From Microcella sp. (GTDB taxonomy: Bacteria; Actinomycetota; Actinomycetes; Actinomycetales; Microbacteriaceae): a DNA stretch of 64,000 nucleotides. Position numbers and translations under genes: made by a program. The DNA lies in assembly GCF_019739195.1 (NCBI RefSeq), contig NZ_JAHHDS010000003.1, positions 806,001-870,000 on the forward strand. The letters are read 5' to 3'. Below are positions 12,167-38,779 of the stretch, one piece after another; positions within the stretch are counted from its first letter, which is position 1, and the number at the start of each line of letters is the position of its first letter. The notes beneath the pieces are model-generated. The model had not been told where the DNA came from. It made no database searches and was given only the letters and a program-made list of their open reading frames with translations.

Positions 12167-12180
12167 ATATCCTATAGGCT
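12167..12180 (+). promoter_or_regulatory. Cluster operator/promoter site A
   Basis: ATATCCTATAGGCT, with the self-complementary core CCTATAGG at 12171-12178. TAGGCT doubles as a -10 box and would start the mRNA near 12187. Shares the TATAGG core with sites D, E, G and H. Confidence 0.6.
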
Positions 12181-12209
12181 TTGTTGCTCTGATGAAAGGC
12201 GTGTCGACG

Positions 12210-13166
12210 ATGACCGCTCCCGAACCCCGCTATGACCCAGAATTGCTGGCACTCCTGATCGCGTCGGGGGACGCCCGGGAGTCGTTCACGCCTGAGGCGA
12301 TCTTGACTCGACGCGCCGAGTGGATGCCCGCGCCGATCGACGATGTGCTCGCCGGTCGCCCGATCGAGCACGAGGAGCGCACGATAGCGGGATACGAAGG
12401 TGCGGACATCACCGTCTCCATCCTCCGGTCCACCCAAGACGACGCGCCTGGGCCAGGTTTCCTCCATGTCCACAGCGGCGGGATGATGATCGGCACGCGA
12501 TTCTCGGGCATCGAGCAACTAGTCGATTGGGTGGAACTGTTTGGCGGAACCTGCGTCACCGTTGAGTACCGGCTCGCACCGGAGCATCAAGATCCCGTTC
12601 CGATCGAAGACAGCTATGCGGCGCTGCTGTACACCGCCGAGAACGCCAGCCAGCTCGGCATCGACCCGCACCGGCTCGTCGTGGCGGGCATGAGCGCCGG
12701 AGGAGGACTCGCAGCGGGGCTCGTTTTGCTCGCCCGCGACCGCAACGGCCCACCCCTGGCCGGCCAGATGCTGATGTGCCCCATGCTCGACGAACGCAAC
12801 GACACCGAATCGAGCCACCAGTTCTCGCATCTCGGCCTGTGGGATCGCGAGAGCAACGACACCGGGTGGAACGCGCTGCTGGGCGATCGCCGGCACACCG
12901 ATCAGGTCAGCATCTACGCGTCACCTGCGCTCGCGCCAGATCTCTCGGGCCTGCCACCAGCTTTCGTTGACGTCGGCTCGATGGAAGTCTTCCGCGACGA
13001 AGACATCGAGTACGCCCGGCGCATCGCCGCGGTCGGCGGCGATGTCGAGCTGCACGTGTGGCCGGGCGCTTTCCACGGCTTCGACTTCGCCTTTCCGCAG
13101 GCAACTCTCTCTCGCCGCGCGCTCGTGGCCCGCCGCGAGTGGCTAGCGCGCATCCTCGAGGCCTGA
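12210..13166 (+). CDS. Alpha/beta hydrolase, HSL-type (abhydrolase_3)
   Basis: Putative carboxylesterase or lactonase of 318 residues. The oxyanion loop is HSGGMMIG (usual HGGG), the nucleophile elbow is GMSAGGG, and the acid and base lie in VGSMEVFRDED and WPGAFHGFDF. Start: GAAAGG lies ten bases before ATG 12210; ATG 12192 is an alternative adding six residues. The site A operator ties it to the catabolic cluster, where it might remove acyl groups or open a lactone; this is inference. Convergent with the MFS gene. Confidence 0.8.
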   Translation: MTAPEPRYDPELLALLIASGDARESFTPEAILTRRAEWMPAPIDDVLAGRPIEHEERTIAGYEGADITVSILRSTQDDAPGPGFLHVHSGGMMIGTRFSGIEQLVDWVELFGGTCVTVEYRLAPEHQDPVPIEDSYAALLYTAENASQLGIDPHRLVVAGMSAGGGLAAGLVLLARDRNGPPLAGQMLMCPMLDERNDTESSHQFSHLGLWDRESNDTGWNALLGDRRHTDQVSIYASPALAPDLSGLPPAFVDVGSMEVFRDEDIEYARRIAAVGGDVELHVWPGAFHGFDFAFPQATLSRRALVARREWLARILEA

Positions 13167-13189
13167 GGCCACCCGGCTCGCTCCGCACC

Positions 13190-14512
13190 CTATTCCGGCT
13201 CGCGGACCACGCTGCCGAGCGCCGACCGACCCTTGCCCAGCCGAAACGTGGTCACCAGACTCGACCGTCGACCCACAATCACCCCAATCACGATCGCGGC
13301 GACGAGAGGAATCGCGCCCGAGAGCATGAGCGCCGCCTGTGGCCCCAGACCATCAGAAAGCGCGCCCAAGAGAGGCCCTCCCAGCGCCTGGCCGCCCGCC
13401 ACGACTGAGACGTAGAGCGAGACGATACGACCTCGCACCATCGGATTACATGACAGCTGAACGAGCGAGTCGGAAACAACCTCGTAGACCAACCGAAGAC
13501 AGCCGACGGCGACCAAGAGGGTGATGAAAACGACCGTGGACAACCCAAAACCCGACAGCATCTGAAGAAGGGCAAACATCGCTGCCGTCATGATCACCGT
13601 GCGCAGGCGGAGGGAACGCACGCGAGTTGACACCAGGGCTCCGATGAGAGCACCGAGGGCGAGCATCGAGGTGTAGAGACCGAAGCCCGCAGCTCCCGAC
13701 TCATAGACGTTCTTGGCCATACCGCTGAGGGTGACCCCAACAGGCAGCGCGAATACCGCGAAGAATGCGATCAACACGAGCGGCCAGAAGATCGTTGGCT
13801 TCGAGCGCGCGTACCGCACTGTCTCGAAGAATTGGGGCCGGGTAAACGCGACGGCCGGTATCACGCGCAACTCGCCCACCCGCAGTAGCGCGACAGTCGC
13901 CGCGACACCGGCGCAGGCCATCGAGTAGACGACGATCGACCATCCGGTGCCGGCGTTCGCGATGATGACCCCACTGATCAGCGGCCCCAGAACACCACCG
14001 AGCCAGAAAACAATGGCGTACACGCTGATTGCATTCTGCAGGTTCGCTGGCGAAACCATTTCGCTGAGAAGCACCACGCGAGCAGGAATCTCGACGGTGT
14101 ACATGACCCCAATGACAAACGCAATCACCACGATGTGCCAGAGTTCGACGACTCCCGCGAGGGTGATCACCGCGAGCACGGTCGTGAGCATCGCGAATAC
14201 CCCGTAGATCAGCGCGACCGTCACACGGCGTGGAAAGCGATCGGCGATCATGGCCCCATACGGCCCGAGCACAATTATCGGCGCCCACTGCACGAACACG
14301 AGAAGGCCCACCGCCGACACGTTGCCGGTGATCTCGAGCGCGAGCCAGTCGACCGCGATGCGAAACATCCACGCGGCCGTATGCAACATGAAGTGGGCGA
14401 TCTGGAACCGCCGGAAGTTGCGATGAGACAGCGAAAGAAAGGAGTCTCTCAAGCGCCTGGGCCCTCTGAAAATCGGAATGGGCGCCGTCTGCGCGTCGTC
14501 GAGCGTCGACAC
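13190..14512 (-). CDS. MFS transporter (DHA3/enterobactin-exporter-like)
   Basis: About 440 residues and 12 hydrophobic segments: WMFRIAVDWLALEITGNVSAVGLLVFVQWAPIIVLGPYGAMIADRFPRR is spread over the first two helices and the motif-A loop (ADRFPRR). The family is commonly annotated as an exporter, yet the gene sits inside a sugar-acid cluster and may instead export or import an oligosaccharide or acid. GTG 14512 is nine bases from AAGGAG; GTG 14518 is too close to it. Divergent from the 14621 gene across site B, which may control both. Confidence 0.8.
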   Translation of the reverse strand: MSTLDDAQTAPIPIFRGPRRLRDSFLSLSHRNFRRFQIAHFMLHTAAWMFRIAVDWLALEITGNVSAVGLLVFVQWAPIIVLGPYGAMIADRFPRRVTVALIYGVFAMLTTVLAVITLAGVVELWHIVVIAFVIGVMYTVEIPARVVLLSEMVSPANLQNAISVYAIVFWLGGVLGPLISGVIIANAGTGWSIVVYSMACAGVAATVALLRVGELRVIPAVAFTRPQFFETVRYARSKPTIFWPLVLIAFFAVFALPVGVTLSGMAKNVYESGAAGFGLYTSMLALGALIGALVSTRVRSLRLRTVIMTAAMFALLQMLSGFGLSTVVFITLLVAVGCLRLVYEVVSDSLVQLSCNPMVRGRIVSLYVSVVAGGQALGGPLLGALSDGLGPQAALMLSGAIPLVAAIVIGVIVGRRSSLVTTFRLGKGRSALGSVVREPE

Positions 14513-14570
14513 GACCACGTACTCCTTCTCATGACTCGCGCACGAGGTCGCAGACCGGCACTGGCGCTGT

Positions 14571-14588
14571 TCCTATATCATATAGACT
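14571..14588. promoter_or_regulatory. Cluster operator/promoter site B
   Basis: CTATATCATATAG (14573-14585) is a perfect palindrome about the central C. TAGACT (14583-14588) is a plus-strand -10 box and TATGAT (14578-14583 reversed) a possible minus-strand one, so a bound regulator could block both the 14621 gene and the MFS gene. Confidence 0.65.
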
Positions 14589-14620: not shown

Positions 14621-16564
14621 ATGCCGAATCAGCCTTCCGACCCGCGCCCCCAGCTCTCGCTCACCGAGGCGGTCACTGTTCCGTCGTGGGCAATTCAGGA
14701 GCGGGAATTGATGGCGCGCCTCGAGGTCGCCGCCCGCGAGTTCGTCGCCCGCTACACCCGCGACGACGGCACCCTCATCTGGCGCGAAGAATGGCCGGGA
14801 ATGGACGGGTCGGACGACCCGTATGAAGCCTTCATGTATCTCGCGCTGTTTTACAGCATCGGGGGCAGCGACGAGGTCTACGAGATGGCGCGTCGGCTCT
14901 GGGATTCGATCACCTGGCAGTGGACACAGTATGGCCAGATCGATCGCGAGTTCGACCGATACTACGACTGGATGCACCACGGGGAAGCCAATCTCTTTCA
15001 CTACTTCTTCGGCTTCACGCGCCCCGACTCGGTCGTCGAACGACAAAGGGCCCGACGGTTTGCTGGCATGTACGACGGCTCCGACCCCATCGCCGATAAC
15101 TACGACCCCGAGCTTCATCTGATCAAGGCACCACAGGCCGGAAGCGCAGGCCCACGATTCGTCGTCACGGCGGAAGACCTCTCGACTCACCGCGGAGTGC
15201 TCGACGACTACCCGGCGCCGTTCGAAGACATGGTCACGAGCCCGTACGAGCTGGGAACGTGCAACTGGAGCGATGACCGCGTCTTCGCGGAAGTGATCGA
15301 ATTGATGAACCAGCGCACTACGCGCGGCGATGTTCCCCTGAACCTCAATGCGACCGGGCAGTTCACGCACGCCTATCTGTACTCGGGCGAGGAGGATCTC
15401 AAGACCTGGGTGCTCGAATACGTCGCCACCTGGCAGGCCCGAGCCGATGCCAATGGTGGCCTGCTGCCTGACAACGTCGGGCTGTCGGGCGCCGTCGGCG
15501 AATACAACGATGGCAAGTGGTGGGGCGGGCACTACGGTTGGCGCTGGCCACACGGCTGGCTCACCATCATCGAGCCGACCCTGAACGCCTCGCTCAATGC
15601 CTACTTGCTGACCCGCGGCGACGAGCAGGCCGTGCGGCTCGTGCGTCAGCAAATCGACACTCACTTCGCTCTCGGGCACAACGAGGGTGACGGCTGGTTC
15701 GTGCCACACAAGCGGCTCGACAGCGGCTGGGCAGATTACCGACCGGCCAATCCTTTCCATGCGATTCACCTATGGGCCCGCACGATGGCCGACGACGACC
15801 GCGAACGGGTCGAGCGCGTGCCGCGCACCACCGATTGGACGGAAGTGATCGTGCCGCGTCGTCCGTTCTCGACGAAGCACTTCAATGCGAACACCCTTGC
15901 CTGGTACGAGTATTCGCAGGGGCGCAATCCCGGCTACCCAGACCGGCTTCTGGCCGCGAACAATGAGCTCATCGACCAGCAGCTTCGACGCATGCGGTCG
16001 AGCGAGGGCGACCCGCGCAGGTGGGGCGAGGTGATCCACATTGACGGTCACACCGACACGGTCAGCATGCAGACCCATGGCTACGCCATCCACGCCTGGC
16101 AAGAGTTCTGCCCCGTGTACTTCGAGTCACTCATCCAACTCATGTGGGGCGCCCCCATGCATATCTCGCACGGCGGCCTGCAGCACGCCACGGTGCGGTA
16201 CTACGACGCCGATGAGCAGCGCCCCGGACTGCCGCCAGGAGTGGCAGCCCTGGTGCACGGGGTGAGCTCCAAGAGCACCACGATCGAGCTCGTGAATACC
16301 GAGAGTGAGCACGGCCGCACGGTGGTCATTCAGGCGGGCACTTTTGGGGAACACCGCTTCACGACTGCTGAGATCAGTCGCGCTGACGGCTCAGCCAGTG
16401 AGCCGCTGAGCGTCGACTCGGAGTGGCTCGATGTCCACCTTGCCCCGGGAGCCGGCGCAACGCTGGTGATCGGAATGGACCGGTACGCCAACGACCCGAG
16501 CTACCAGACGCCGTGGTCTCGTCGCGAGAACTGGGATCCCGTCATCCGGCCCCGGCAGCAGTAG
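14621..16564 (+). CDS. Unrecognised 647-residue putative carbohydrate-active enzyme
   Basis: I do not recognise the family. No signal peptide, so probably cytoplasmic. The first about 500 residues are helix-rich with conserved-looking aromatic/charged blocks: DWMHHGEANLFHYFFGF, KWWGGHYGWRWPHGW, and HIDGHTDTVSMQTHGYAIHAW. This resembles an (alpha/alpha) toroid of glycosidases and polysaccharide lyases. The last about 110 residues look like a beta-sandwich (TTIELVNTE ... LVIGMDRYAND). GGAG precedes ATG 14621 by seven bases. Operator B and neighbours suggest it releases monomers or an acid sugar from an imported oligosaccharide. Function inferred only from context and overall build. Confidence 0.6.
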   Translation: MPNQPSDPRPQLSLTEAVTVPSWAIQERELMARLEVAAREFVARYTRDDGTLIWREEWPGMDGSDDPYEAFMYLALFYSIGGSDEVYEMARRLWDSITWQWTQYGQIDREFDRYYDWMHHGEANLFHYFFGFTRPDSVVERQRARRFAGMYDGSDPIADNYDPELHLIKAPQAGSAGPRFVVTAEDLSTHRGVLDDYPAPFEDMVTSPYELGTCNWSDDRVFAEVIELMNQRTTRGDVPLNLNATGQFTHAYLYSGEEDLKTWVLEYVATWQARADANGGLLPDNVGLSGAVGEYNDGKWWGGHYGWRWPHGWLTIIEPTLNASLNAYLLTRGDEQAVRLVRQQIDTHFALGHNEGDGWFVPHKRLDSGWADYRPANPFHAIHLWARTMADDDRERVERVPRTTDWTEVIVPRRPFSTKHFNANTLAWYEYSQGRNPGYPDRLLAANNELIDQQLRRMRSSEGDPRRWGEVIHIDGHTDTVSMQTHGYAIHAWQEFCPVYFESLIQLMWGAPMHISHGGLQHATVRYYDADEQRPGLPPGVAALVHGVSSKSTTIELVNTESEHGRTVVIQAGTFGEHRFTTAEISRADGSASEPLSVDSEWLDVHLAPGAGATLVIGMDRYANDPSYQTPWSRRENWDPVIRPRQQ

Positions 16565-16637: not shown

Positions 16638-17423
16638 CTAGGGCCCCAGCCGGAACCCTCCGTCGATGGCGATCGTCGCTCCTGTCACCCACCTCGCGTT
16701 GTCGGTGACGAGCATCACGACACCGGCGGCGATGTCGTCGGGACTCGCGAGCGATCCGCGTTCCCGCGCGTCATCCAGCACGGCTCGTGCCGCCTTCTCA
16801 CCACCGGCGAAGTCGACGGTCCAGCGCTCGAGACTCGGACTCGCGGTGCCACCGGGCATGAGCGTATTGACCCGCACGCCTCGGTCACGCAGCTCGAGCG
16901 CAAGGTTCAGCGCCGCGTGGTTGAGGGCGGCCTTGCTGGTGTCGTAGACGATGTTCTTGCGATTGGCGATGAGCGCATTGGTCGAACTGATCATCACGAC
17001 ACAACCGCTCGAGGCCACCAGGTCGTCGACCGCCTCCTGCACGAGAAACACGGGCGCCAGTAGATTGACCGACAACGCATCCCTCCATGCCTTCTCGGTG
17101 CCTGCCTCGAGCGGCTCATGAAGCACCATCGCGGCGTTGCATACGATGATGTCGATGCGGCCCCATCGGTCGCGAGCACGCGTCAGGATGGCCTGGGCGG
17201 CACCCTGAGGTTCACGCAGGTCCGCCCGCATGTACTCGGCCTCCCCGCCTTCACGTCGAACACGACGCAATGCCTCGGTCACGACATCGGAGTCGTCAGG
17301 GTCGAGACCGTGGAGCAGAACGTTGCTGCCCTCGCGTGCCAGCGCGACTGCCGTCGCGAGCCCGATTCCCGTCGTGGATCCTGTGACGATCGCGCAACGA
17401 GATGCCTCTTGATCACCCCGCAC
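16638..17423 (-). CDS. SDR family oxidoreductase
   Basis: NAD(P)-dependent dehydrogenase of 261 residues. Cofactor motif TGSTTGIG, CNAA motif as VCNAAMVLHEP, catalytic Ser in MISSTN and YxxxK as YDTSKAALNHAA. The C-terminus GATIAIDGGFRLGP is typical of classical SDRs. AGGAGG four bases before GTG 17423 sets the start. It follows the ABC permease genes by 88 bases on the same strand and is probably the last gene of that operon. Substrate likely a sugar or sugar acid (inference). Confidence 0.88.
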   Translation of the reverse strand: MRGDQEASRCAIVTGSTTGIGLATAVALAREGSNVLLHGLDPDDSDVVTEALRRVRREGGEAEYMRADLREPQGAAQAILTRARDRWGRIDIIVCNAAMVLHEPLEAGTEKAWRDALSVNLLAPVFLVQEAVDDLVASSGCVVMISSTNALIANRKNIVYDTSKAALNHAALNLALELRDRGVRVNTLMPGGTASPSLERWTVDFAGGEKAARAVLDDARERGSLASPDDIAAGVVMLVTDNARWVTGATIAIDGGFRLGP

Positions 17424-17511
17424 AGTGCCTCCTCACGCCGATCTCCCGCGTCGACTCCATCACCGAAGGTACTGAGTCGCGCGGCGCCGAGAAGTGGGCG
17501 CGCATGGCGCC

Positions 17512-18459
17512 TTAACTCTTGACCGCGCCGGCCAACACTCCCCGTACCAGCAACCTCGACGAGACCAGGAAGACAATCAGAATCGGGATGGCCACGACAA
17601 GACCGGCGAGGGCGATTTCCGGCCGGCCAATGACGCTCTGCTGAGCACCGTTCCCCGGGTTCAGCGCCGGTGTCGAGCTGAACAAGATTCCCAACCCGAC
17701 CGGCAATGTGTAGTTGGCGGCAGACCCGAGCAGCACATACGGAAGGAAGTAGTTCACCCACGCTGCGCTGAAGCTGAAGAACGCGAGCATCCCCAGAAGA
17801 CCCTTCGAGAGCGGCAACGCGATCAAGAAGAAGGTCTTGTACTCCCCCGCGCCGTCAACACGGGCCGCCTCGAAGACCTCGTGGGGAATCGACGTTGAGA
17901 AGTAGATGTAGGCAAGAAACACCCCGAACGGATAGAACGAGCTCGTCAAAATGACAGCGGTTGATGTGTCATACAACCCGGCTTGCACGATCTGAATGTA
18001 CAACGGGATGACCAGAGCGACTGGCGGAACGATCGTCGCGACCAGAGTTGTGATGAGCAGAGTTCTCTTGAACGGCAAGGCGGTGACTGCGAGCGCATAG
18101 CCCGCCAACAGTGCGGTGGCGCAGGCGATGCCGACGATGGCCGCCGTGTACAGAACCGAGTTCAGCAACCACTGAGTGATGATGCCGTCCTGGAAGGTTT
18201 GCAAGTTCTGCCACGCAATGACGTAGTTCTCAAAGCTGCCGAAGCTGAATGGCGGGTCATTGTTCAGTTGAGGAGCAGTCTTCGACGGGGCAATGATCAG
18301 CCAGATCATCGGGATGATGCTGGCGAGGGCGAACGCGATCATCGTCACCCAGACGACGACGCGACCAGCATTTCCTCTCGGCGTTCGCTTGTTGAGATTG
18401 TGGTGGACGATCTTCGGAGGCCCCACGCGAGCTTCGTTGACAGCGGTACTCGTCGTCAT
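17512..18459 (-). CDS. ABC sugar transporter permease (MalG/UgpE-like)
   Basis: Second inner-membrane subunit of a CUT1 carbohydrate importer. 315 residues, six predicted helices after a 35-residue cytoplasmic N-terminus. The EAA loop is visible as EVFEAARVDGAGEYKTFFLIALPLSK in two adjacent parts. ATG 18459 overlaps the preceding permease stop by four bases. Partners: the permease at 18456-19352 and lipoprotein at 19422-20714. No ATPase gene is linked. Confidence 0.93.
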   Translation of the reverse strand: MTTSTAVNEARVGPPKIVHHNLNKRTPRGNAGRVVVWVTMIAFALASIIPMIWLIIAPSKTAPQLNNDPPFSFGSFENYVIAWQNLQTFQDGIITQWLLNSVLYTAAIVGIACATALLAGYALAVTALPFKRTLLITTLVATIVPPVALVIPLYIQIVQAGLYDTSTAVILTSSFYPFGVFLAYIYFSTSIPHEVFEAARVDGAGEYKTFFLIALPLSKGLLGMLAFFSFSAAWVNYFLPYVLLGSAANYTLPVGLGILFSSTPALNPGNGAQQSVIGRPEIALAGLVVAIPILIVFLVSSRLLVRGVLAGAVKS

Positions 18460-19352
18460 TTGCGTTTTACTCCAATTCCATCAAAGAAGTCGGTTCGGAA
18501 GATCACGAAGACAGCGGCGATCACGCAGACCACCAGCAGCATGAGCGACAGTGCAGCAGCGCCCCCCAGGTTGTTTTGCTGGAACGCAAACGTGTAGGCG
18601 AGCTGGTTCAGCGACCAGTTCGCCGCTAGGCCCGGGTAAACCGATGCCGAGATGAGCTGTGGCTCGACGAAGACCTGGAGGCCCGCAGCAAAGACCAGGA
18701 TTCCCATGTACACGAGGTACTTCTTGATCAACGGCAACTTGATTTGCCACGCGATTTGCACTGCGTTGGCACCGTCAATTCGAGCTGCCTCGAGAATGTC
18801 ATCGGGGATCGACTGGAGCGAGCCGTACTGCACGACAATCCAGTTGCCCGCGCCGGTGAAGAAGGCCATGAGAACGAAAATCCATCCGAGATTCTGAGCT
18901 TGCCAGATCTGCGTGCCCTGAGTGATTCCGAGAGCTGCCAGCGCATCTTGGTACGGGCTCAGCGTCGGCTCCAGAAGGAAGTACCAGACCAGAACCGCAG
19001 TGGCTCCTGTCAACGAGGCAGGAACAAGGTAGGTGAGGCGCAACGGCAGATTCCATCGCCCTTGCACGGTATCGAGAAGCAATGACATTAGCGCGACCAC
19101 GATGAGCATCGCCGGCACGTACATCGCCAGGAAGATCCCCACGTTGATCAGCGCTGGCAGAAAACGGAAATCTTGCAACACCACCAAGTAGTTGAGGGGC
19201 CCACCACCTGGATTGAGAATGGACGGTTCGAAAGACGTGATCGCCGCGACGACGATCGGCCACACACCGAATGCCAGAAGGAGCGCTAGGTACGGCGTGA
19301 ACATAACGAGCCCCGCGATGAGGCTCTGGCGACTGCTACGTGATCGCGACAC
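18456..19352 (-). CDS. ABC sugar transporter permease (MalF/UgpA-like)
   Basis: First membrane subunit of the CUT1 importer, 298 residues with six helices (LIAGLVMFTPYLALLLAFGVWPI is the first, followed by the periplasmic loop). The EAA loop reads DDILEAARIDGANAVQ, then WQIKLPLIKKY. GTG 19352 with GAGGAG six bases upstream. Separated from the binding-protein gene by an intercistronic hairpin. Confidence 0.93.
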   Translation of the reverse strand: MSRSRSSRQSLIAGLVMFTPYLALLLAFGVWPIVVAAITSFEPSILNPGGGPLNYLVVLQDFRFLPALINVGIFLAMYVPAMLIVVALMSLLLDTVQGRWNLPLRLTYLVPASLTGATAVLVWYFLLEPTLSPYQDALAALGITQGTQIWQAQNLGWIFVLMAFFTGAGNWIVVQYGSLQSIPDDILEAARIDGANAVQIAWQIKLPLIKKYLVYMGILVFAAGLQVFVEPQLISASVYPGLAANWSLNQLAYTFAFQQNNLGGAAALSLMLLVVCVIAAVFVIFRTDFFDGIGVKRK

Positions 19353-19377
19353 TGCGACTCCTCTTCACTCAAGATGA

Positions 19378-19415
19378 GGGTTGGGTGCCGGAGCGCAAAC
19401 TCCGACACCCAACCC
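19378..19415 (-). terminator. Intercistronic stem-loop between binding-protein and permease genes
   Basis: GGGTTGGGTGCCGGAG (19378-19393) pairs with CTCCGACACCCAACCC (19400-19415) with one mismatch and a six-base loop, immediately after the binding-protein stop. Such hairpins usually protect the upstream message or lower read-through, giving more binding protein than permease. Confidence 0.7.
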
Positions 19416-19421
19416 CAATGA

Positions 19422-20714: not shown

Positions 20715-20803
20715 TGGTGCTTCCTTTCCTGCCGTGACGGAACGAAAGAAAGAAAGCTTCTTCGCTCCAGGGTTGAAAACGATGCTACATGTTCTTGGCA
20801 GAA

Positions 20804-20827
20804 TCGTATAGCATATTTCCTATAACG
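20804..20827. promoter_or_regulatory. Cluster operator/promoter site C
   Basis: Between the divergent binding-protein and SDR genes. Contains GTATAGCATAT (20806-20816) and a second half-type element TTTCCTATAA (20816-20825). Read on the minus strand it includes TATAGGA and TATACGAT, the latter a possible -10 box of the importer operon. Confidence 0.55.
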
Positions 20828-23493: not shown

Positions 23494-23567
23494 GGCGATC
23501 CTTCAGCGAAGAGGTGAGCGAACGCCCGCTGCGCGACGGTGGCCCGCGCCGCAGTACGCATGATCAA

Positions 23568-23585
23568 CAATGATATAGGATATTG
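23568..23585. promoter_or_regulatory. Cluster operator/promoter site D
   Basis: CAATGATATAGGATATTG, an imperfect palindrome. TAGGAT (23576-23581) is a plus-strand -10 box for the FAH gene; the reverse strand offers TATCAT for the enolase gene. Confidence 0.65.
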
Positions 23586-23640
23586 GGGTGGTGTGCGCGC
23601 GGCGGATCGCTTGGCTCACCCTCAGGACGAAAGGCACCCC

Positions 23641-24528: not shown

Positions 24529-24546
24529 CTCGGGCTGGGCATGTCG

Positions 24547-27235: not shown

Positions 27236-27239
27236 CACG

Positions 27240-28424: not shown

Positions 28425-28447
28425 GATCGATCCTTGCTGTCGGCAGT

Positions 28448-29302: not shown

Positions 29303-29303
29303 G

Positions 29304-30922: not shown

Positions 30923-30925
30923 GGA

Positions 30926-30940
30926 TTCATCCTATATGAA
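30926..30940 (-). promoter_or_regulatory. Cluster operator/promoter site E (leaderless)
   Basis: TTCATCCTATATGAA, inverted arms TTCAT/ATGAA. On the minus strand TAGGAT (30929-30934) is exactly six bases before the ATG at 30922, so the -10 box lies within the palindrome and the mRNA starts at the A of ATG. Confidence 0.65.
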
Positions 30941-31067
30941 AACGATTTACCACACCACACGCGGCATCTCGACTGTCCCGTCATCGCGATTGCCCGTGAA
31001 ACTCGGCTGCCCCAGCGGACGAGCTGCCCAGCGCGCCGAGTGCGGGCGTGTGCCGACGCGCCAATAC

Positions 31068-31087
31068 AATAGGCAATAGGGAATAGG
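31068..31087 (+). repeat. Three tandem AATAGG units upstream of the GntR gene (site F)
   Basis: AATAGG at 31068-31073, 31075-31080 and 31082-31087, period seven bases, 53 bases before the GntR start. They contain the ATAGG half-core of the cluster operators; probable autoregulatory site. Confidence 0.5.
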
Positions 31088-31139
31088 CGTCTCGACCCGA
31101 AGCGCCACCGTTGGCGTTGCCAGCAGATCTGAGGAGAGC

Positions 31140-31913
31140 ATGAACACTCAGTCATCGATTCGGCGAGCGTCAGCCGGGCGGCCTTCACGCTCTGTTCTCT
31201 CTGATGAAACGCACGACGCGATTCGCGAAATGCTTCTGAATCACACCATTGCGCCTGGTGAGCACATCAACATTGATGCGCTTTCTCGTGAGCTCGAGGT
31301 CTCTCAGACCCCTGTTCGAGAGGCTCTCGCACGGTTGGAGTCAGACGATCTCGTCGTGAAACAGCCCTTGCGCGGTTACACGGCCACCGAACTCCTCACC
31401 GTCACGCAACTCGACGACCTCTTTCAGTTTCGACTGCTGATCGAGCCATGGTCTGCAGAGAAGGCGGCGACGCAGTCCGACCACCACGGACACGAGGAAC
31501 TGAGGGCAGAACTCGAGCGCGGCGCGGCCGTAGGTGCCCTCGATATGGAGCGCGCCTACGCCGCGATGTCTGAACATGACGCCCGCTTTCACGAGCTCAT
31601 CGCGCGACTATCGGGGAGCGAGTTCGTGCGTGATGCTTTCGTTCGCACGCACTGTCACCTGCATCTCTTCCGACTCTATCAAGCCGGTCAGGCTCAACTA
31701 GAGGCAGCAGGGAAGGACTCCGCATTCGTCGACACCCTGTTCAGCCTGTACTACCAGCCGACATCGGGGTTCCTCGCGTTCCGTGAGCATGAAGGCATCG
31801 CCCAGGCAGTGCTCGCTGGCGACGCCGCCAGTGCGCGCACTCGCATGCACGACCACATTCAGTCATCGCGGGAACGGTTTGCCCCCGCGATGACAGTCCT
31901 CAACGGCCACTAG
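31140..31913 (+). CDS. GntR family regulator with FCD domain
   Basis: 257 residues. Winged helix at about 22-90 (INIDALSRELEVSQTPVREALARLESDDLV in two parts), then an all-helical FCD ligand domain with its metal residues in EHDARFHELI, VRTHCHLHLF and FREHEGIAQAV. FCD regulators sense organic acids, typically sugar acids, and bind short palindromes. Its central place among acid-sugar genes makes it the leading candidate for the TATAGGAT regulon. GAGGAG precedes ATG 31140. Confidence 0.92.
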   Translation: MNTQSSIRRASAGRPSRSVLSDETHDAIREMLLNHTIAPGEHINIDALSRELEVSQTPVREALARLESDDLVVKQPLRGYTATELLTVTQLDDLFQFRLLIEPWSAEKAATQSDHHGHEELRAELERGAAVGALDMERAYAAMSEHDARFHELIARLSGSEFVRDAFVRTHCHLHLFRLYQAGQAQLEAAGKDSAFVDTLFSLYYQPTSGFLAFREHEGIAQAVLAGDAASARTRMHDHIQSSRERFAPAMTVLNGH

Positions 31914-31916
31914 CGC

Positions 31917-32915
31917 TCACGGCGTAGGCGCATCGGCTCTCAGCAGCCCAGCCTCGACGAGTTCAGCCCACACGGCGGCAGGAACGGGAGTGTCGAACAG
32001 CGCGTCGTTGCGCTCAACCTGCGCGCGCGAACGCGCCCCCAGGCACACCGTCGGTACCGCGGCATGGCCTAGAGCAAACTGCACGGCGACTTGTGGCAGC
32101 GTCGCACCGTGGTGCTCGCAAATGTCAGCGATGCGGGTAGCTCGAGCAACCAGCGAGTCGGGTGCGGTTGCATAGTCGAAATGCGATGTGGGGTCGGGAC
32201 GATCGCGAGCGAGAAGGCCCGAGTTGAAGACACCCGCGGCGACGACCGACACGTTATGAGCGAGAGCCGCAGGCAATAGATCATCGAGCGCGCTCTGATC
32301 AAGCAACGTATACCGACCCGCCAACATGACAACATCTACGTCGCTGTTGATGACGAAATTGGCCAGCATCGTCGACTGATTCATTCCGGCGCCATACGAA
32401 CGAATGACACCTTGGCTACGCAGTTCGTCAAGCGCAGGAAGAGCACCGTCGAGAACGGACTCGTAATAGTCGTCAGGATCGTGAACGTAGACGAGATCGA
32501 TGCGGTCGAGCCCTAGCCGGGTCAAGGACGCCTCGATCGAGCGCAGCACCCCATCACGCGAGTAGTCGTACACGCGCACGTGATCGCGCGGAACGTCGAA
32601 GCCGTTGTCGATATCTCGATCGTCTGCGCCGTTATGAGTTGGCTGAAGCAGCCGGCCGACCTTCGTCGAGATGATGACCTCATCACGAGACCAGCCTCGC
32701 ACCGCTTCCCCCAGCCGACGTTCTGAAAGTCCCAGCCCGTAATGAGGGGCAGTATCGAAGTAGCGAACATCAGACTGCCAAGCCGCATCGAGCGCGTCCG
32801 CCGCTGTCGCGTCATCGATGGCTCGAAAGAGATTCCCGATCACCGCCGCACCGAATGCGTGCCGGCCCACTGCCAGGCCCCCTCGGCCGAGGGGGGAACG
32901 TTCAGTGCGATTCAT
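31917..32915 (-). CDS. Aldo-keto reductase, D-threo-aldose 1-dehydrogenase (L-fucose dehydrogenase) type
   Basis: 332 residues. Catalytic Asp/Tyr in YFDTAPHYGLGLSERRLG, Lys in ISTKVGR, His in LVYVHDPDD. The segment YDYSRDGVLRSIEASLTRLGLD is typical of the D-threo-aldose/L-fucose dehydrogenases, which oxidise L-fucose to L-fuconolactone with NAD(P)+. Last gene of the operon running from 35743; convergent with the GntR gene three bases away. Confidence 0.85.
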   Translation of the reverse strand: MNRTERSPLGRGGLAVGRHAFGAAVIGNLFRAIDDATAADALDAAWQSDVRYFDTAPHYGLGLSERRLGEAVRGWSRDEVIISTKVGRLLQPTHNGADDRDIDNGFDVPRDHVRVYDYSRDGVLRSIEASLTRLGLDRIDLVYVHDPDDYYESVLDGALPALDELRSQGVIRSYGAGMNQSTMLANFVINSDVDVVMLAGRYTLLDQSALDDLLPAALAHNVSVVAAGVFNSGLLARDRPDPTSHFDYATAPDSLVARATRIADICEHHGATLPQVAVQFALGHAAVPTVCLGARSRAQVERNDALFDTPVPAAVWAELVEAGLLRADAPTP

Positions 32916-32960
32916 GGGCGCTCCTCAGTAGAGCCATGGTGGGAGACATCGCGATGCCGC

Positions 32961-34058
32961 TTAGGCCACGCGAAGGTTGTCGATGGCATCGAGGTTCCAG
33001 TCAATGCCGAGGCCGAGCGAGGTCGGCGCCTGCGCCCGCCCATCGACGATGCTGATCTCGCCCGTCGTCACTCGCCGCAGCTGGGGAATGTGCTCGAGGT
33101 ACAGTGCGTTCGGGATCGCACATACGAGCGGCAGGTGTAGCTCCATCAAGAAGTGCGGGGCGACCTTCACGCTGTATGCCTCGGCAAGGTGCGCCACCTT
33201 AAGCCACGGGGTGATACCGCCAATGCGGGCCACATCGACCTGAATGATCGACGCGGCACCGCGGTGCAAGTACTCGCGAAAATGACCTATCGAGTACATG
33301 CTTTCGCCCACCGCCACCGGAATCGACGTGGCGTTGGCGAGTCGCTCGTGACCCGCAATGTCGTCGGCAGGGAGGGGCTCTTCGAACCAGAACAGGTCGA
33401 GTGGCTCGAACAAGTGCGCCCGACGAATGGCGTCGGCGGCGGTCAGTGACTGGTTGGCATCTACCATCAGATCGAAGCCGTGACCGACCGCCTCGCGCAC
33501 CGCACTCAGGCGCGCGAGATCGTCATGCGGGTTGGGCAGGCCGACCTTGACCTTCGCGCCCAGCAGACCCCGCTCCTGGGTTGCGCGCGCCTGGGTGACG
33601 AGCTCGTCAGGGCTCAGGTGCAACCACCCACCCTCAGTGTCGTAGACCGGAATCGACGACGATGAGCCCCCGGCGAGCATCCAGAGCGGTACGCCAGAGC
33701 GCCGCGAACGGCCGTCCCAGACCGCGGTATCGATCGCAGCGAGGGCAAGCGACGTGATCGCACCGACCGTGGTCGCGCGCGTCGAGTTGAAGGCGGCATA
33801 CCAGACCGCCTCGGGGCGCTCGGCGTCGGCACCGAGAACCGCCTCGAGCATGCCACCACGCAGCATCTCGAGGACCGCGCGGCCGCCGGTTCCGATCGTG
33901 TAGCTGTAGCCGAGGGCGGTCATGCCGTCGGCGGTCTCGAGCCGCACATAGATGGTCTCTTGCTTGAGGAAGGCCTGCACCGCGTCTGTGCGCACCGTCT
34001 CGACAGGAATGTCGCTGAGCCAAGCCTCGGCCGCGACGATGGTGGTGGGGCTGGTCAT
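32961..34058 (-). CDS. Mandelate racemase-type enolase-superfamily enzyme (KxK)
   Basis: 365 residues with the full catalytic set at the mandelate racemase spacing: K169-x-K171 (GAKVKVG), D200 (VDANQ), E226 (WFEEP), E252 (VGES), D275 (VDVARIGG) and H302 (APHFLME). This architecture occurs in mandelate racemase and L-talarate/galactarate dehydratase. Substrate not assigned. ATG 34058 overlaps the fucD stop by four bases. Confidence 0.88.
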
Positions 34059-35377
34059 GAGGCTCCTCGTGCGGCAGGGTTCGCAGCCCACTCTGGGCCG
34101 TCGGGAAAGCGAAAGCGGTCACGCGACGCGGCGTGCATCTGCATGCCGGATCCCGGTTGTTCGGGGGCACGGTACCGGCCCCCCTCGACGCGGGTGGGCT
34201 CGACAAAGTGCTCATGCAGATGATCGACATACTCGATCATTCGGCCCTCCATCGAGCCCGAGACCGCAATGTAGTCAAACATCGAGAGGTGCTGCACTGC
34301 CTCGCAGAGCCCCACGCCACCGGCGTGCGGGCAGACAGGCACACCGAATTTGGCGGCCAACAACAAAATGGCGATGTTCTCGTTGACCCCGGCGACGCGC
34401 ACGCTGTCGATCTGCAGCACGCCGATCGCACGCGCCTGCAGCAACTGCTTGAACAGCACCCGGTTGGCGCCGTGCTCGCCCGTGGCAACGCGGATCGGCG
34501 CGATCGCGCGAGCGATTGTCGCGTGGCCGAGCACGTCGTCGGGACTGGTGGGCTCTTCGATCCAGGCGGGGGCGAAGGGGGCAAGCTGCTGGATCCAGGC
34601 GATCGCGGCGGGGACATCCCACCGCTGGTTGGCATCAATGGCAATCGGGTAGTCGGGGCCGCACACCTCGCGCGCGATGCGCAAGCGCCGAATGTCATCG
34701 TCAAGGTCGGCGCCGACCTTGAGCTTGATCTGGGGAAAGCCGGCGTCGAGCGCCTCGCGGCACAGCCGTGCGAGCTTCTCGTCGTCGTAGCCGAGCCAGC
34801 CAGGCGAGGTGGTGTAGGCGGGGTATCCCGCAGCCAGCAAGGTCTGCTCGCGCTCAGCGCGCGTGGCGACCTGAGCCGTCAGAATGCGGACGGCGTCGTC
34901 GCGGCTGAGCTCGTCAGATATGTAGCGGTAGTCGACGAGGTCGGCGATCTCGTCGGGCATCATCCGCGAGAGCATCTGCCAGAGAGGCAGACCGGCCCGC
35001 TTGGCCTTGAGATCCCACAGCGCGTTGACGGCGGCGCCGATCGCCATGTGCATGACGCCTTTCTCCGGGCCGAGCCACCGTAACTGCGAGTCATGCACGA
35101 GCCAGCGCCACGTAGCCCCCATGTCGTCGAGCAAGGCCTCGACGTCATGCCCCAGAAGGTGACCTCTCAACGCGTCGATCGCGGCCGCCTGAACATCGTT
35201 GCCGCGACCGATCGTGAAGACAAAAGCGTGGCCGTCGTGGCCGTCAGCTGCATCAGTACCGAGTACAAGGTAGGCCGCCGAGTAGTCGGGGTCGGCGTTC
35301 ATCGCGTCTGACCCGTCAAGACTCGTCGAGGTGGGAAACCGAATGTCGCTCGTGGTGACGGCGGTGATGGTGCTCAC
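34055..35377 (-). CDS. fucD: L-fuconate dehydratase
   Basis: Dehydrates L-fuconate to 2-keto-3-deoxy-L-fuconate. 440 residues, the family length. Family-specific segments: [34 protein letters not shown] and [13 protein letters not shown]. Catalytic residues K218-x-K220 (QIKLK), D248, E274, E301 and H351 (CPHAGG) fall at the positions I recall for Xanthomonas FucD. The other oxidative fucose enzymes nearby support the call. Second gene after rhaM in its operon. Confidence 0.93.
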
Positions 35378-35419
35378 GGTGAATAGTCTCCGTTCAGGGG
35401 CAGGGCGTTACCCGGCAGG

Positions 35420-35743
35420 TCAGTCGTGGTGGAACACTTCGGGCAGGTCTTTCCACCACTCACCCTCGGCGCGGTCATCAACCGGCACTTGCATGGGCTT
35501 GCAGATCGCCCACCACCGCTGCGTCTCGGCATCGTCGGCCATGGCTGCCATGTCGGCGTCAAAATCGTCGCCGACGTACTCGAAGTAGGAGAAGAGCAGA
35601 TCACCATGACGGTAGATCGAGTAATTGCGAATGCCGCTCTGAGTAATGCGTTCGAGAACTGTCGGCCAGGCGTTGGCGTGCAGGTCTTCGTACTCGGCGC
35701 GGTTCTCGGGCTTGAGACCGATGACAGAGGCAATGCGCTTCAA
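35420..35743 (-). CDS. L-rhamnose/L-fucose mutarotase (RhaM/YiiL family)
   Basis: 107 residues: MKRIASVIGLKPENRAEYEDLHANAWPTVLE begins with the YiiL pattern, including the conserved His; IRNYSIYRHGDLLFSYFEYVG and the Trp-Trp motif QRWWAICKPMQ follow. Interconverts anomers so the dehydrogenase gets the right form. TTG start at 35743, six bases after GGGAG. First gene of the operon rhaM-fucD-enolase-AKR under site G. Confidence 0.9.
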   Translation of the reverse strand: MKRIASVIGLKPENRAEYEDLHANAWPTVLERITQSGIRNYSIYRHGDLLFSYFEYVGDDFDADMAAMADDAETQRWWAICKPMQVPVDDRAEGEWWKDLPEVFHHD

Positions 35744-35756
35744 GGCAACTCCCTTT

Positions 35757-35766
35757 TCCTATAGGA
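35757..35766 (-). promoter_or_regulatory. Cluster operator/promoter site G
   Basis: TCCTATAGGA, a perfect 10-bp palindrome 13 bases upstream of the rhaM start, also with TATAGGA on the minus (coding) strand. Confidence 0.6.
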
Positions 35767-35773
35767 CATACGA

Positions 35774-36418
35774 TCAGAGGATACGATACCGCTCCCACAC
35801 CTCGCGCAGGGTTGCTCCGGCGACGAGATCAGTGAGAACGCTCGTCTCTGACGACATGCGCGCGCGCGCCACCGTGAGCACCTGATCGGCGACGGCGGCC
35901 GGGATGACGACCACCCCGTCATCGTCGGCAGCGACCAGATCGCCCGGCGCTATCTCGACCCCGCCGATCTCCACGTTCTGTTGCACGGCGGTCACGCGCA
36001 TCCGCCCCCTGTAGTCGATCGGACGGTGCGAGCGTGCGAACGCCGCGAAGCCGAGGGGGATGATCTTGTCACTGTCGCGCAGATTGCCGTCGGTGACCAT
36101 TCCGACGGCGCCTCGGCCGAGGGCGGCCGCCGAAAACAACTCGCCCCAGAAAGCTGAGGCGTTGCTCTCACCCGTGGCGATCACCACAACCTCGCCGGGC
36201 TCGATCGAGTCGATGAAGTCAATCGCATCGTCATAGGGCTTCGCGGGGTCGACGTCATCGGTCGGTTCGAACCGCACCGTGCGGGCCGGGCCCAGAATAC
36301 GGCTGCCGGGAATAGCACACGGCAGGCGCTCAGCAAGCACTCGGTGGCGCTCGCCGACAGCGTCGAGCGAGTCAGACAGGTTGGCCGTGGTGGGAAGAAG
36401 CTCGGGCAAGTGGGTCAC
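35774..36418 (-). CDS. RraA-like / HMG-aldolase family protein
   Basis: 214 residues of the RraA/4-hydroxy-4-methyl-2-oxoglutarate aldolase fold. The metal/substrate motif G-x-x-x-DG-x-x-RD is seen as GMVTDGNLRDSDKI, and GDLVAADDDGVVVIP is the usual second signature. Members cleave 2-oxo acids to pyruvate; here it may act on a deoxy-keto acid from one of the dehydratases (inference). ATG 36418 overlaps the upstream enolase stop by four bases. Confidence 0.88.
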   Translation of the reverse strand: MTHLPELLPTTANLSDSLDAVGERHRVLAERLPCAIPGSRILGPARTVRFEPTDDVDPAKPYDDAIDFIDSIEPGEVVVIATGESNASAFWGELFSAAALGRGAVGMVTDGNLRDSDKIIPLGFAAFARSHRPIDYRGRMRVTAVQQNVEIGGVEIAPGDLVAADDDGVVVIPAAVADQVLTVARARMSSETSVLTDLVAGATLREVWERYRIL

Positions 36419-37551
36419 TGTGATCCTTTCGGGGACGATTCGGATGAGTACGACAGCACCTCAACCGTGGCCGCATCAATCGCGTCCCAGTCAAAGACCG
36501 CACCGACGCCCGGTGCCGTCGGCGGGTAGACGAATCCATCCCGAATATCAAGCGGCTCAGCGAGACCGAAAGCGTAGGTGTCCAGGGGGTACAGCACTTC
36601 GAAGTAGGTGGTGTTCGGGATGCCCAGTGCGCAGTGCAGATTCGCGAGCTCGAGCGGGTGGTAGATCGTCGTGTGCAATTCGCAGGGCACTCCGTGCGCT
36701 TCGGCCAGGCGAGCAACCTCAAGGGTCGAGGTGATACCCCCACGCCATGACACATCAGCCCGCACAATGTCGAGGGCGCCCGAAGTGATGTAGGGGGCGG
36801 TCAATAACGCCCCACCCGCGATCGACTCGGCACCGGCAATCGGAATCTCGAGCTCGCGCGACAACTGCACCAGAGACTCCATGTCGTAGTCATCGAGCGG
36901 CTCTTCGAACCAGAGGTACCCAAGCTTCTCGAGCTCGCGCCCGACCCTCACAGCCTCGGCGAGCGTGTGCGTCGCGACGGGGTCAGCCATGAGAGGGAAG
37001 TCGGGCCCTACTTCGTCGCGCACCGCGCGGTACACCTCAAGGTCGAGCGAAGCGGGGCCGGGCGGATGAATCTTGTAGGCCGTAAAGCCGTCGTTCCGCA
37101 CGCTGCGCACCTCGGTGACGTAGTCGTCGACGGTCGAGAGAAACATCGAACTGGCGTAGACCGGCAGGCGATCATGAGCGGTGCCGATCAGCCGGTGCAC
37201 GGGCAGACCGGCGACCTTGCCGGCGATATCCCAACAGGCGACGTCGAAGGGACCGTACGCGTAGATCGGCGACAGGTTCCACCGTCGATCGAAGAATCGA
37301 AACTCGCGCAGGTTGAGCTCGTGCGCCAGCGGGTCACGGCCCATGAAGAACGGTGCTACCTGCGCGAAAGCGCGAGCGGTGGTGCGCGAGTCGAGGCCCC
37401 CAAACCCGAACGACGTGCCGCGCACGCCTTCGTCGGTCGTCAGCGTGATCACCACCACGTCGGGCACGCTCTGGCCGTCGAGAGACGACCGCTCGCGCGA
37501 CGAACTGTCATCGACGCGACAGGCGCGGATCTCAACATCAACGATGCGCAC
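36415..37551 (-). CDS. Enolase-superfamily acid-sugar dehydratase/racemase (KxH)
   Basis: 378 residues. K160-x-H162 (YKIHPPG), D190 (MADPV), E216 (WFEEP), E242 (AES), D266 (VRADVSWRGG) and H293 (CELHTT). Same numbering as the 22381-23493 protein but with the dyad Asp intact. Lies between two other catabolic genes in the operon starting at 38757. Substrate unknown; an acid sugar by family. Confidence 0.87.
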   Translation of the reverse strand: MRIVDVEIRACRVDDSSSRERSSLDGQSVPDVVVITLTTDEGVRGTSFGFGGLDSRTTARAFAQVAPFFMGRDPLAHELNLREFRFFDRRWNLSPIYAYGPFDVACWDIAGKVAGLPVHRLIGTAHDRLPVYASSMFLSTVDDYVTEVRSVRNDGFTAYKIHPPGPASLDLEVYRAVRDEVGPDFPLMADPVATHTLAEAVRVGRELEKLGYLWFEEPLDDYDMESLVQLSRELEIPIAGAESIAGGALLTAPYITSGALDIVRADVSWRGGITSTLEVARLAEAHGVPCELHTTIYHPLELANLHCALGIPNTTYFEVLYPLDTYAFGLAEPLDIRDGFVYPPTAPGVGAVFDWDAIDAATVEVLSYSSESSPKGSQ

Positions 37552-37593
37552 AGCAGACCTCCTTGTCTGTCAACATTGGTGGTTGGCGCTTGC

Positions 37594-38757
37594 TCAGGCC
37601 CGAATGACGTGCCCACCGGTGGGCACGAACGGAAACTGCTTCTCGATCGCGGGAGTCACGCGCAGGCCGAGCCCGGGGGCCGTGGGAGCGACCAGCGTGC
37701 TCCCCTCGCGGCGTAGCGGCTCGACGAGCAAGCTCTCGCGCAGCGGATTGGGCAGCGTGCAGTATTCGAACAGTTCGACCTCGGGCCGCGCCAGGACCGT
37801 GTGCAGGTTGGCCATGAGAGTCACGCCGCTGCCCCACACGTGGGGCACCGTCGCGACACCATGCGAGGCGGCGAGCGCAGCGATGCGGCCGAACACTGAT
37901 GGCCCGCCGACGAAAGTGGCATCGGGCTGAGCTATGTCAACTCCGCCCGCCTCGATGAGCACGCGGAAGTCTTCGAAGGTGCCGTGCGACTCGACCCCCG
38001 AGACAGGCACCGCGAGAGCATCCCGCACCGCCGCATAAGCGGCCGGGTCGGTGGCGTGCGCCGGCTCTTCGAACCAGCGGGCGCCCGCGTCTGCCACGAC
38101 GCGACCCACGCGAATCGCATCATCGAGAGACCACGGGCGACCTGCACAGCCCTGAACCGCGTCGAGCACGAACCTGCCCGTGCCCGACAACCGCGGAATG
38201 ATTTCCTCGACCAGCCGAATGGTAGTGCCAGGATCGCGCATCGCCCGAAACTTCACGGTATCGAACCCCGCATCTCGCTGCGCGTTGGCCCAGTTCAGCA
38301 CCTCATCGAAAGTGTCACCAAGCCCGCCACTGGCATAGATCTCGATCGAACGACGCTGCAGTCCGCCCAGCAGCTCGTAGGCCGGAACCCCCTCGCGCAC
38401 TCCCACAGCGTCCAGGCAGGCGAGTTCGATCGCGCCGGCAACGCCGCTGGCGATGCCCCCGCGCGACCAGAAGGCGGTCATGGCCCGCAGGTGGTCAGCC
38501 ACGTCAAGGGGATGCTCGAACAGGTTCTCGAGCAGAAAGGAGCGGTAGGCATCCACCAGACCGGGAACCGCGAGCGCCGCCATGATGCCGGCGCCGGCCT
38601 CTCCGACCCCGCGCGTGCCATCACTGAGTGTGACTTCGACCAGCGCGGCATCCCAGGAACGGATCATGCCTCCGACCCAGCGCAACTCCTCTCCAGGGGC
38701 GTACGGCGCCGACAGCAGTATGGGTCGAATGGCCGTCACGACAAGGGAGGAGTCCAT
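37594..38757 (-). CDS. Enolase-superfamily protein, KxR variant
   Basis: 387 residues. Barrel motifs K169-x-R171 (TVKFRAM), D199 (VLDAVQG), E230 (WFEEP), E256 (GVESHG), D279 (QPDATFVGG) and H306 (VPHVWGSG). The K-x-R pattern differs from its four cluster siblings, suggesting a distinct substrate. Leaderless: TAGGAT-AAGTGC-ATG, where the -10 is operator H. First gene of the operon with 36415-37551 and the RraA-like gene. Confidence 0.87.
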   Translation of the reverse strand: MDSSLVVTAIRPILLSAPYAPGEELRWVGGMIRSWDAALVEVTLSDGTRGVGEAGAGIMAALAVPGLVDAYRSFLLENLFEHPLDVADHLRAMTAFWSRGGIASGVAGAIELACLDAVGVREGVPAYELLGGLQRRSIEIYASGGLGDTFDEVLNWANAQRDAGFDTVKFRAMRDPGTTIRLVEEIIPRLSGTGRFVLDAVQGCAGRPWSLDDAIRVGRVVADAGARWFEEPAHATDPAAYAAVRDALAVPVSGVESHGTFEDFRVLIEAGGVDIAQPDATFVGGPSVFGRIAALAASHGVATVPHVWGSGVTLMANLHTVLARPEVELFEYCTLPNPLRESLLVEPLRREGSTLVAPTAPGLGLRVTPAIEKQFPFVPTGGHVIRA

Positions 38758-38762
38758 GCACT

Positions 38763-38779
38763 TATCCTATACGATATAG
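38763..38779 (-). promoter_or_regulatory. Cluster operator/promoter site H (leaderless)
   Basis: TATCCTATACGATATAG, inverted CTATA/TATAG arms. On the minus strand TAGGAT (38764-38769) is exactly six bases before the ATG at 38757, the same layout as site E. Confidence 0.65.

Follow-up and report, generated by a model that had tools for sequence, protein, structure and literature searches.

Introduction

Operators of the FadR subfamily of GntR transcription factors commonly, but not universally, follow the consensus TKGT/ACMA, and in FadR and AraR an arginine of the recognition helix reads a G (excerpts of PMC4494728). At position 28 of the helix-turn-helix (HTH), contacts were inferred from statistics, Arg-G where the residue is Arg and Asp-C where it is the less frequent Asp, and extra half-sites near palindromes have been described for the GntR family (same excerpts of PMC4494728). 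Here we describe a 27-kb gene cluster of Microcella sp. (assembly GCF_019739195.1, contig NZ_JAHHDS010000003.1) in which seven promoter regions carry versions of a 12-bp palindrome, ATCCTATAGGAT. The cluster lies within positions 806,001 to 870,000 of the contig; this whole stretch of 64,000 nucleotides is the window, and positions below are numbered within it. From sequence comparison, we consider it quite probable that about 24 genes of the cluster form a local regulon under one FCD-type GntR protein, itself encoded in the cluster, that would bind ATCCTATAGGAT.

The sites associated with this regulator are TCC-TATA-GGA-like and do not match TKGT/ACMA. The mismatch marks a variant and is no ground for excluding the protein from the FadR subfamily, because exceptions to the consensus are known (excerpts of PMC4494728). 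Below we report the computed sites and show that they are confined to the cluster, that most are conserved and that they are linked to a clade of GntR proteins.

A palindrome shared by seven promoter regions

The palindrome occurs with one to three mismatches in seven promoter regions, designated A, B, C, D, E, G and H. ATCCTATAGGAT is the consensus of the symmetrised window sites, and the exact word occurs neither in the window nor elsewhere in its own genome. The word TATAGG was seen 10 times in the window versus 1.60 expected, and TATAGGAT with at most one mismatch 13 times versus 4.03 expected; none of 100 shuffles was as high in either case. Within the window alone the 12-mer with up to three mismatches is not significant (9 versus 4.53 expected, 5 of 100 shuffles as high).

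The genome was then searched whole (2,880,602 bases in 4 contigs). All six places that match ATCCTATAGGAT with at most two mismatches lie inside the cluster, as do all five matches of WTNNTATANNAW, all four of TATAGGAT and six of the nine of TNNTATANNA. The half-site CCTATA is found 52 times genome-wide and only 10 times in the cluster, so it is the full dyad, not the half-site, that marks the region. Hits as frequent as ordinary -10 boxes, the outcome that a first-pass annotation of this DNA had set against its own proposal, were not found: full dyads are confined to the cluster genome-wide.

We also built a symmetric position weight matrix (PWM) from 63 distinct sites, each with at most one mismatch, in the loci of 80 GntR relatives, with the window excluded. 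Its eight highest places in the window were, in descending order, H, A, G, E, D, C, B and a second dyad at B, with scores from 26.5 to 11.8; ninth came a tandem ATAGG set ahead of gntR, at 3.4. Best scores in 20 random windows ranged from 1.2 to 11.6 (random sequence here, and for the site expectation in relatives' loci, came from a first-order Markov model, not exact shuffles). The ranking therefore supports the seven promoters and not the element ahead of gntR. It is partly circular, because the training sites lie within one mismatch of the window-symmetrised consensus; the exact palindrome, absent from the window and its own genome, turned up afterwards in relatives. The places scored are as follows (given without strand).

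Site A, 12169-12180: ATCCTATAGGCT, upstream of an alpha/beta-hydrolase gene; score 24.9
Site B, 14570-14588: TTCCTATATCAT overlapping ATCATATAGACT, upstream of the gene for a 647-amino-acid (aa) protein, with a major facilitator superfamily (MFS) gene divergent; scores 15.0 and 11.8
Site C, 20803-20814: ATCGTATAGCAT, between a putative operon for a substrate-binding protein (SBP) and ATP-binding cassette (ABC) permeases and a divergent short-chain dehydrogenase/reductase (SDR) gene; score 16.3
Site D, 23570-23581: ATGATATAGGAT, between an enolase-superfamily gene and a divergent gene for a hydrolase of the fumarylacetoacetate hydrolase (FAH) type; score 16.6
Site E, 30929-30940: ATCCTATATGAA, upstream of the 384-aa gene, the first in a run of seven genes; score 18.6
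Site G, 35756-35767: TTCCTATAGGAC, upstream of the mutarotase / L-fuconate dehydratase run; score 19.5
Site H, 38764-38775: ATCCTATACGAT, 6 nt ahead of the ATG of an enolase-superfamily gene; score 26.5, the window maximum
Tandem (CAATAGG)3, 31067-31088: upstream of gntR; score 3.4, at background level, and unsupported as an operator

These results reshape the first-pass annotation, which had proposed eight promoters sharing a TATAGGAT operator. Seven stand by the matrix from relatives; the eighth, the tandem CAATAGG set, scores within the range of random sequence and was dropped. No triple array is present in the upstream DNA of the relatives L017, L018, L019, L112 and L113, and a single ATAGG word lies near gntR in L018 and L019. 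The odd palindrome described at B resolves into two overlapping dyads (14570-14581 and 14577-14588) offset by 7 bp, both above background. At H the dyad itself held, whereas a second dyad did not rise above background (-5.3). The motif had also been called absent from the flanking core genes; TATAGG does occur once, at 11917 in the 6-phosphogluconate dehydrogenase gene, and what is missing there is the remaining palindrome.

Cooperative pairs of dyads were considered and rejected, B being the one site of the window whose second dyad exceeds background. The half-site CCTATA 14 bp beyond site C is at background level (PWM of the second dyad -4.4). Secondary matches in relatives are few and scattered over offsets, the commonest being 10 (5 cases), and for this reason we claim no such pairs.

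Association with a clade of GntR proteins

The proposed regulator is encoded between sites E and G.

GntR, 31140-31913, plus strand: FCD-subfamily GntR protein, proposed regulator (Pfam GntR and FCD)

The N-terminal winged helix matches PF00392 (1.4e-12, 47.5 bits, cut-off 27) and the C-terminal FCD domain PF07729 (1.7e-14, 54.7 bits, cut-off 24.3), and both domains assign the protein to the FCD (FadR) subfamily. In a forward search we examined the loci of the best 80 of 107 GntR relatives, with flanks of at most 10 kb. These loci hold 91 sites with at most two mismatches versus 17.2 expected; 67 of the 80 have at least one such site and 41 have the exact palindrome. Pontimonas, Aquiluna, Planktophila-like bacteria, Kribbella and others have the palindrome next to gntR or next to orthologues of the target genes. 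Specifically, the exact palindrome is upstream of gntR in all 21 Kribbella-type loci (L058, L059 and L061-L079), 134-206 nt ahead of the matched part. It is immediately downstream of gntR and ahead of an ENO4 orthologue in Planktophila-like loci, and ahead of an ENO2 orthologue, about 9 kb from gntR, in 8 of 9 Lentzea loci (ENO1 to ENO5 denote the enolase-superfamily genes of the cluster).

Conservation was also counted gene by gene, with the reversed word at the same orthologues as control. The orthologues preceded by a site with at most two mismatches number 7 of 10 for the 647-aa gene of site B (control 0), 21 of 34 for ENO4, in the run of site H (control 3), 20 of 36 for ENO2 (control 0) and 27 of 75 for GntR (control 0). 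Many of the loci counted are close kin and genes near locus ends were excluded; FAH is undercounted, because its query extended beyond the likely start on the upstream side. The close relatives L017-L019 have sites ahead of orthologues of the hydrolase (A), 647-aa (B), FAH (D) and mutarotase (G) genes and of ENO4 (H run). Among these, the site ahead of the hydrolase was found in L017 and L018 (2 of 13 loci counted), those ahead of FAH lie 18-63 bp upstream of the match in L017, L018 and L019, and that ahead of the mutarotase was found in L019 (1 of 11 orthologues); ENO3 orthologues have a site in 3 of 29 cases.

A reverse search, starting from the palindrome, gave a concordant picture. Across 150 genomes of the family we identified 16 exact palindromes in 15 genomes, and the reversed pattern in none. 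For 13 of these palindromes, an FCD GntR that has Asp46 and lacks Arg56 (window-protein numbering) is found no more than 4.4 kb away. Of the other three, one is beside a variant GntR (Glu, Ser), one precedes an ENO2 orthologue with no GntR within the 9.8 kb examined, and one (L260) is unexplained. At L260 an exact ATCCTATAGGAT stands with neither a GntR nor a relative of the window genes in the 8.7 kb examined. Whole-genome searches of the six family members whose GntRs are closest gave 8 to 25 sites per genome with at most two mismatches; the reversed word gave 1 to 4. The three one-mismatch sites of G104 among the matches listed are all on the gntR contig, and in G129, G063, G028 and G054 there are sites about 7 kb or less from a same-type GntR.

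Several observations weigh against this reading. Thirteen of the 80 relatives' loci have no site with at most two mismatches. Site C is not kept (SDR2 orthologues 0 of 33; SBP 2 of 17 versus 3 of 17 in the control), nor is site E ahead of 384-aa orthologues (0 of 6), and ENO1 orthologues have a site in 1 of 18 cases versus 3 of 18 in the control. At 4 of the 13 reverse-search places an Arg-type GntR is also within 4.4 kb; in L259 and L262 such a protein (helix SRPTIRRA) is 0.7 kb from the exact palindrome, nearer than the FCD GntR of the Asp/Pro type. Only 3 of 30 family-genome GntRs of the same type that were unselected for the motif have a site no further than 600 bp away (flanks were short). 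Sites in the six closest-GntR genomes are not limited to the gntR region, and G130 has none on its gntR contig among the matches listed. A LacI gene is also inside the cluster. At the level of the phylum there is no enrichment of the exact palindrome: 7 of 246 genomes have it, and 9 of 246 have the reversed word. A same-type GntR stands beside one of the 7 loci (L246); the other six have no GntR within 1.5 kb.

Overall, these comparisons place the operator association with the GntR clade, not with the phylum. The suggestion of the first-pass annotation that the FCD-type GntR is the best candidate regulator was supported by both the forward and the reverse comparative searches, which point to it as much the best candidate.

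Recognition helix and operator

The recognition helix of the window GntR is NIDALSRELEVSQTPVREA, with Gln where the recognition-helix Arg is expected. We take its Asp to stand at HTH position 28, having placed it by eye from the published FadR numbering and the FadR sequence. In an alignment to the solved structure 3fms this Asp is opposite Arg and the Gln opposite Phe; absence of the helix Arg is therefore not unique to the clade, since 3fms, a solved relative, has Phe there. Members of the clade have Gln, Pro or another residue at the helix-Arg position, and at the second contact position, where Arg is the commonest residue, they mostly have Asp. In the FCD domain an Asp/His stretch and a late His, candidate residues of a metal site, align with 3fms and 3sxy; the remaining His falls outside the alignment.

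Site and residue were compared for 217 GntR proteins, reduced from 225 rows by removing gapped and duplicate proteins; loci fetched for the motif (L096-L110) are excluded from the counts that follow. A site with at most one mismatch lies inside 600 bp of 48 of 124 GntRs without the Arg and of 0 of 88 with it. By source, the former comprise 44 of 80 in relatives' loci and 4 of 44 in family genomes, sets that were sampled differently; the Arg-type set consists mainly of the best-scoring FCD matches of 40 genomes (30 loci and 60 stretches). In a tree of 189 rows made by a quick method, which left out short, duplicate and motif-selected rows and most Kribbella rows, the motif carriers lie to the same side of a single branch (96 rows, SH-aLRT 95). 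We therefore abandoned multiple origins of the helix change as a proof of the code. The residue change and the operator change are inseparable in these data because they share their history on that branch.

Within the genome itself, which has 14 GntR matches, 12 GntRs were scored, and Asp46 without Arg56 occurs only in the window GntR; two further GntRs (L176 and L179) also lack the helix Arg. Outside the window, at C3:1376639-1376648, the genome has TTGTATAACA, a word close to a GT/AC operator, about 58 bp ahead of the matched HTH of an Arg-helix GntR (C3:1376707), a contrast within one genome.

It may be, at roughly even chances, that a clade of Actinomycetota FCD GntRs has changed its DNA code, having lost the G-reading Arg, mostly acquired Asp at the second contact and moved to a CC-TATA-GG operator. 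If true, the clade would be a natural test of the proposed Asp-C contact (excerpts of PMC4494728).

Predicted target genes and pathway

About 24 genes, distributed over both strands, follow the seven sites and make up the predicted regulon; the operon limits drawn below are our best estimate.

12192-13166, plus: alpha/beta hydrolase (Abhydrolase_3), target of A (Pfam 7.7e-53)
14621-16564, plus: 647-aa protein, target of B; no significant family match
16638-20714, minus: SBP, two ABC permeases and an SDR, target of C (Pfam)
20909-21658, plus: SDR dehydrogenase, target of C (Pfam adh_short_C2; NCBIfam SDR matches all below cut-offs)
21764-22375, plus: DUF1349 protein, after the SDR gene (Pfam 3.6e-36)
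22381-23493, minus: enolase-superfamily ENO1, target of D (Pfam MR_MLE_C 3.7e-38)
23641-24528, plus: FAH-family hydrolase, target of D (NCBIfam 325.5 bits)
24547-30922, minus: run from E, with the 384-aa protein, MaoC, L-fuconolactonase-like amidohydrolase, CoA-transferase III, MaoC, Gfo/Idh/MocA and LacI (Pfam)
29768-30922, minus: 384-aa protein, head of the E run; no significant Pfam or NCBIfam family
31917-35743, minus: run from G, with mutarotase, L-fuconate dehydratase, ENO2 and aldo/keto reductase (Pfam, structure matches)
34055-35377, minus: L-fuconate dehydratase (1yey, 5e-174)
35420-35743, minus: rhaM-type mutarotase (Pfam rhaM 5e-32; NCBIfam 48.2 bits, below cut-off)
35774-38757, minus: run from H, with enolase-superfamily ENO5 and ENO4 and an RraA-like protein (Pfam)

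The L-fuconate dehydratase assignment is clear, as the 1yey match spans query residues 1-417 of 420 (the first 20 codons of the open reading frame were omitted). The amidohydrolase of the E run matches FuconLaconase NF052480 (5.8e-44, 150.8 bits, below the cut-off of 400) and 4dlf (1.6e-21), and the FAH hydrolase is a relative of 2,4-didehydro-3-deoxy-L-rhamnonate hydrolase (NF053535, 325.5 bits, below the cut-off of 500). With this dehydratase, a rhaM-type mutarotase and enzymes resembling a lactonase and a hydrolase, the cluster likely encodes a non-phosphorylative route for L-fucose and sugar acids with extra sugar-acid branches. The aldo/keto reductase and two SDR genes are candidates for the L-fucose and 2-keto-3-deoxy-fuconate dehydrogenase steps, their substrates being unassigned by family matches, and the group at 16638-20714 is likely an uptake operon.

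A serious alternative, to which we give somewhat less than even chances, accepts the regulon and moves its main substrate away from L-fucose to several aldonates or uronates, with the five enolase-superfamily enzymes acting on different sugar acids. Among three enolase-superfamily proteins compared with solved structures, one is clearly L-fuconate dehydratase, and the remaining enolases match talarate/galactarate or unassigned enzymes, below cut-offs. The CoA-transferase and MaoC genes are not known as part of the fucose route, which also speaks for other substrates. Against this, the lactonase-like, FAH hydrolase, SDR and mutarotase genes all fit that route, and we retain L-fucose and sugar acids as the likely substrates.

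Five enolase-superfamily genes lie within 16 kb (22381-38757), and among these only L-fuconate dehydratase is clearly assigned. CoA-transferase III and two MaoC genes (26702-29921) are found inside what appears to be a sugar operon. The 647-aa protein, which matches no significant Pfam or NCBIfam family and no solved relative, and the 384-aa protein both occur near GntR in relatives, the former also with the operator. The frame unk119 overlies the mutarotase and is not a gene. A tRNA-Gln (TTG; 48392-48464, minus strand) is the sole RNA gene found in the window.

Proposed mechanism

The position of the sites and the protein family are the grounds on which we infer repression and an effector. 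In relatives, 55 of 63 sites lie less than 30 nt from a possible start codon, versus 418 of 1260 random places. At both E and H, 6 nt lie between TAGGAT and an ATG, although the genes may have other in-frame starts; at E this ATG is that of the 384-aa gene, and on the other side the gntR start is 199 nt away. The copies would lie on or beside core promoters. The actinobacterial -10 consensus is TANNNT, which the right half, TAGGAT, fits, and the spacing at E and H would be compatible with transcripts that lack a leader and have TAGGAT for a -10 box. A GntR dimer is predicted to bind the palindrome, and from that place the bound dimer would block RNA polymerase. A pathway intermediate, probably L-fuconate or another sugar acid, could then bind the FCD domain and cause release.

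The GntR protein could instead be an activator at some or all sites. Some FCD regulators do activate, such as CitO (excerpts of PMC6608401), but the sites are mostly within 30 nt of possible start codons, a position that suits a repressor, and we consider activation unlikely. Still less credible is that the sites are ordinary TAGGAT-like -10 boxes and not operators. The fit to TANNNT and the closeness to start codons would agree with this; however, a 12-bp palindrome is not a feature of -10 boxes, TATAGGAT occurs 4 times in 2.88 Mb, always in the cluster, and the exact full palindrome stands beside GntR relatives in distant genera. Equally improbable is binding or shared control by the LacI-family protein at 24547, whose gene is in the cluster as the last of the run from E, since LacI operators usually have a central CG where all seven sites have a TATA centre, and the 80 relatives' loci gave only three LacI matches (E up to 1e-10; flanks at most 10 kb), two of them 31 and 32% identical and so not orthologues. 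Repression by the window GntR is the reading we prefer.

Relation to known systems

We did not find the exact 12-mer in the literature, RegPrecise and most subscription papers being outside the search, nor CC-TATA-GG as an operator in the literature searched, including fucose and GntR titles among the matches listed (RegPrecise again outside). For CCTATAGG with GntR the only match was an oligonucleotide in PMC3187754 (seen as an excerpt), and matches to TCCTATAGGA included nothing on bacterial regulation, judged by title. We found no literature joining fucose, Planktophila and fuconate. The putative CC-TATA-GG operator differs from the subfamily consensus, which has known exceptions, and its novelty is not established.

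The proposal has practical consequences. Operator, regulator and target list are testable in one gel-shift, in a group to which freshwater actinobacteria, among them Planktophila, belong. A recognition-helix change tied to an operator change in a large family would open the FCD protein-DNA code to direct testing. The 647- and 384-aa proteins, both conserved and of no known family, would gain a place in a sugar-acid regulon.

In gene content the locus resembles the Xanthomonas-type non-phosphorylative L-fucose loci, where L-fuconate dehydratase, COG0179 (FAH), COG1028 (SDR), a transporter and regulator sites also occur together (excerpts of PMC5507952). Unlike those loci, which are in other phyla and have FucR sites, it has extra enolase-superfamily, CoA-transferase and MaoC genes (same excerpts of PMC5507952). 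In architecture the regulator is like FadR-subfamily GntRs with palindromes spaced by 2 nt (GntR, UxuR and MdcY among others), combining a winged HTH and an FCD domain with a short palindrome that has an AT centre. It departs from the subfamily consensus in that TCC-TATA-GGA reads C and C at the K and G positions of TKGT/ACMA, and from FadR and AraR in having Gln in place of the G-contacting recognition-helix Arg. As a FadR-subfamily GntR that breaks the GT/AC rule it has company in NanR and BioR. The NanR operator consists of direct repeats of TGGTATAW and that of BioR is TTATMKATAA, whereas the operator predicted here is CC-TATA-GG (for these GntR-family comparisons, excerpts of PMC4494728).

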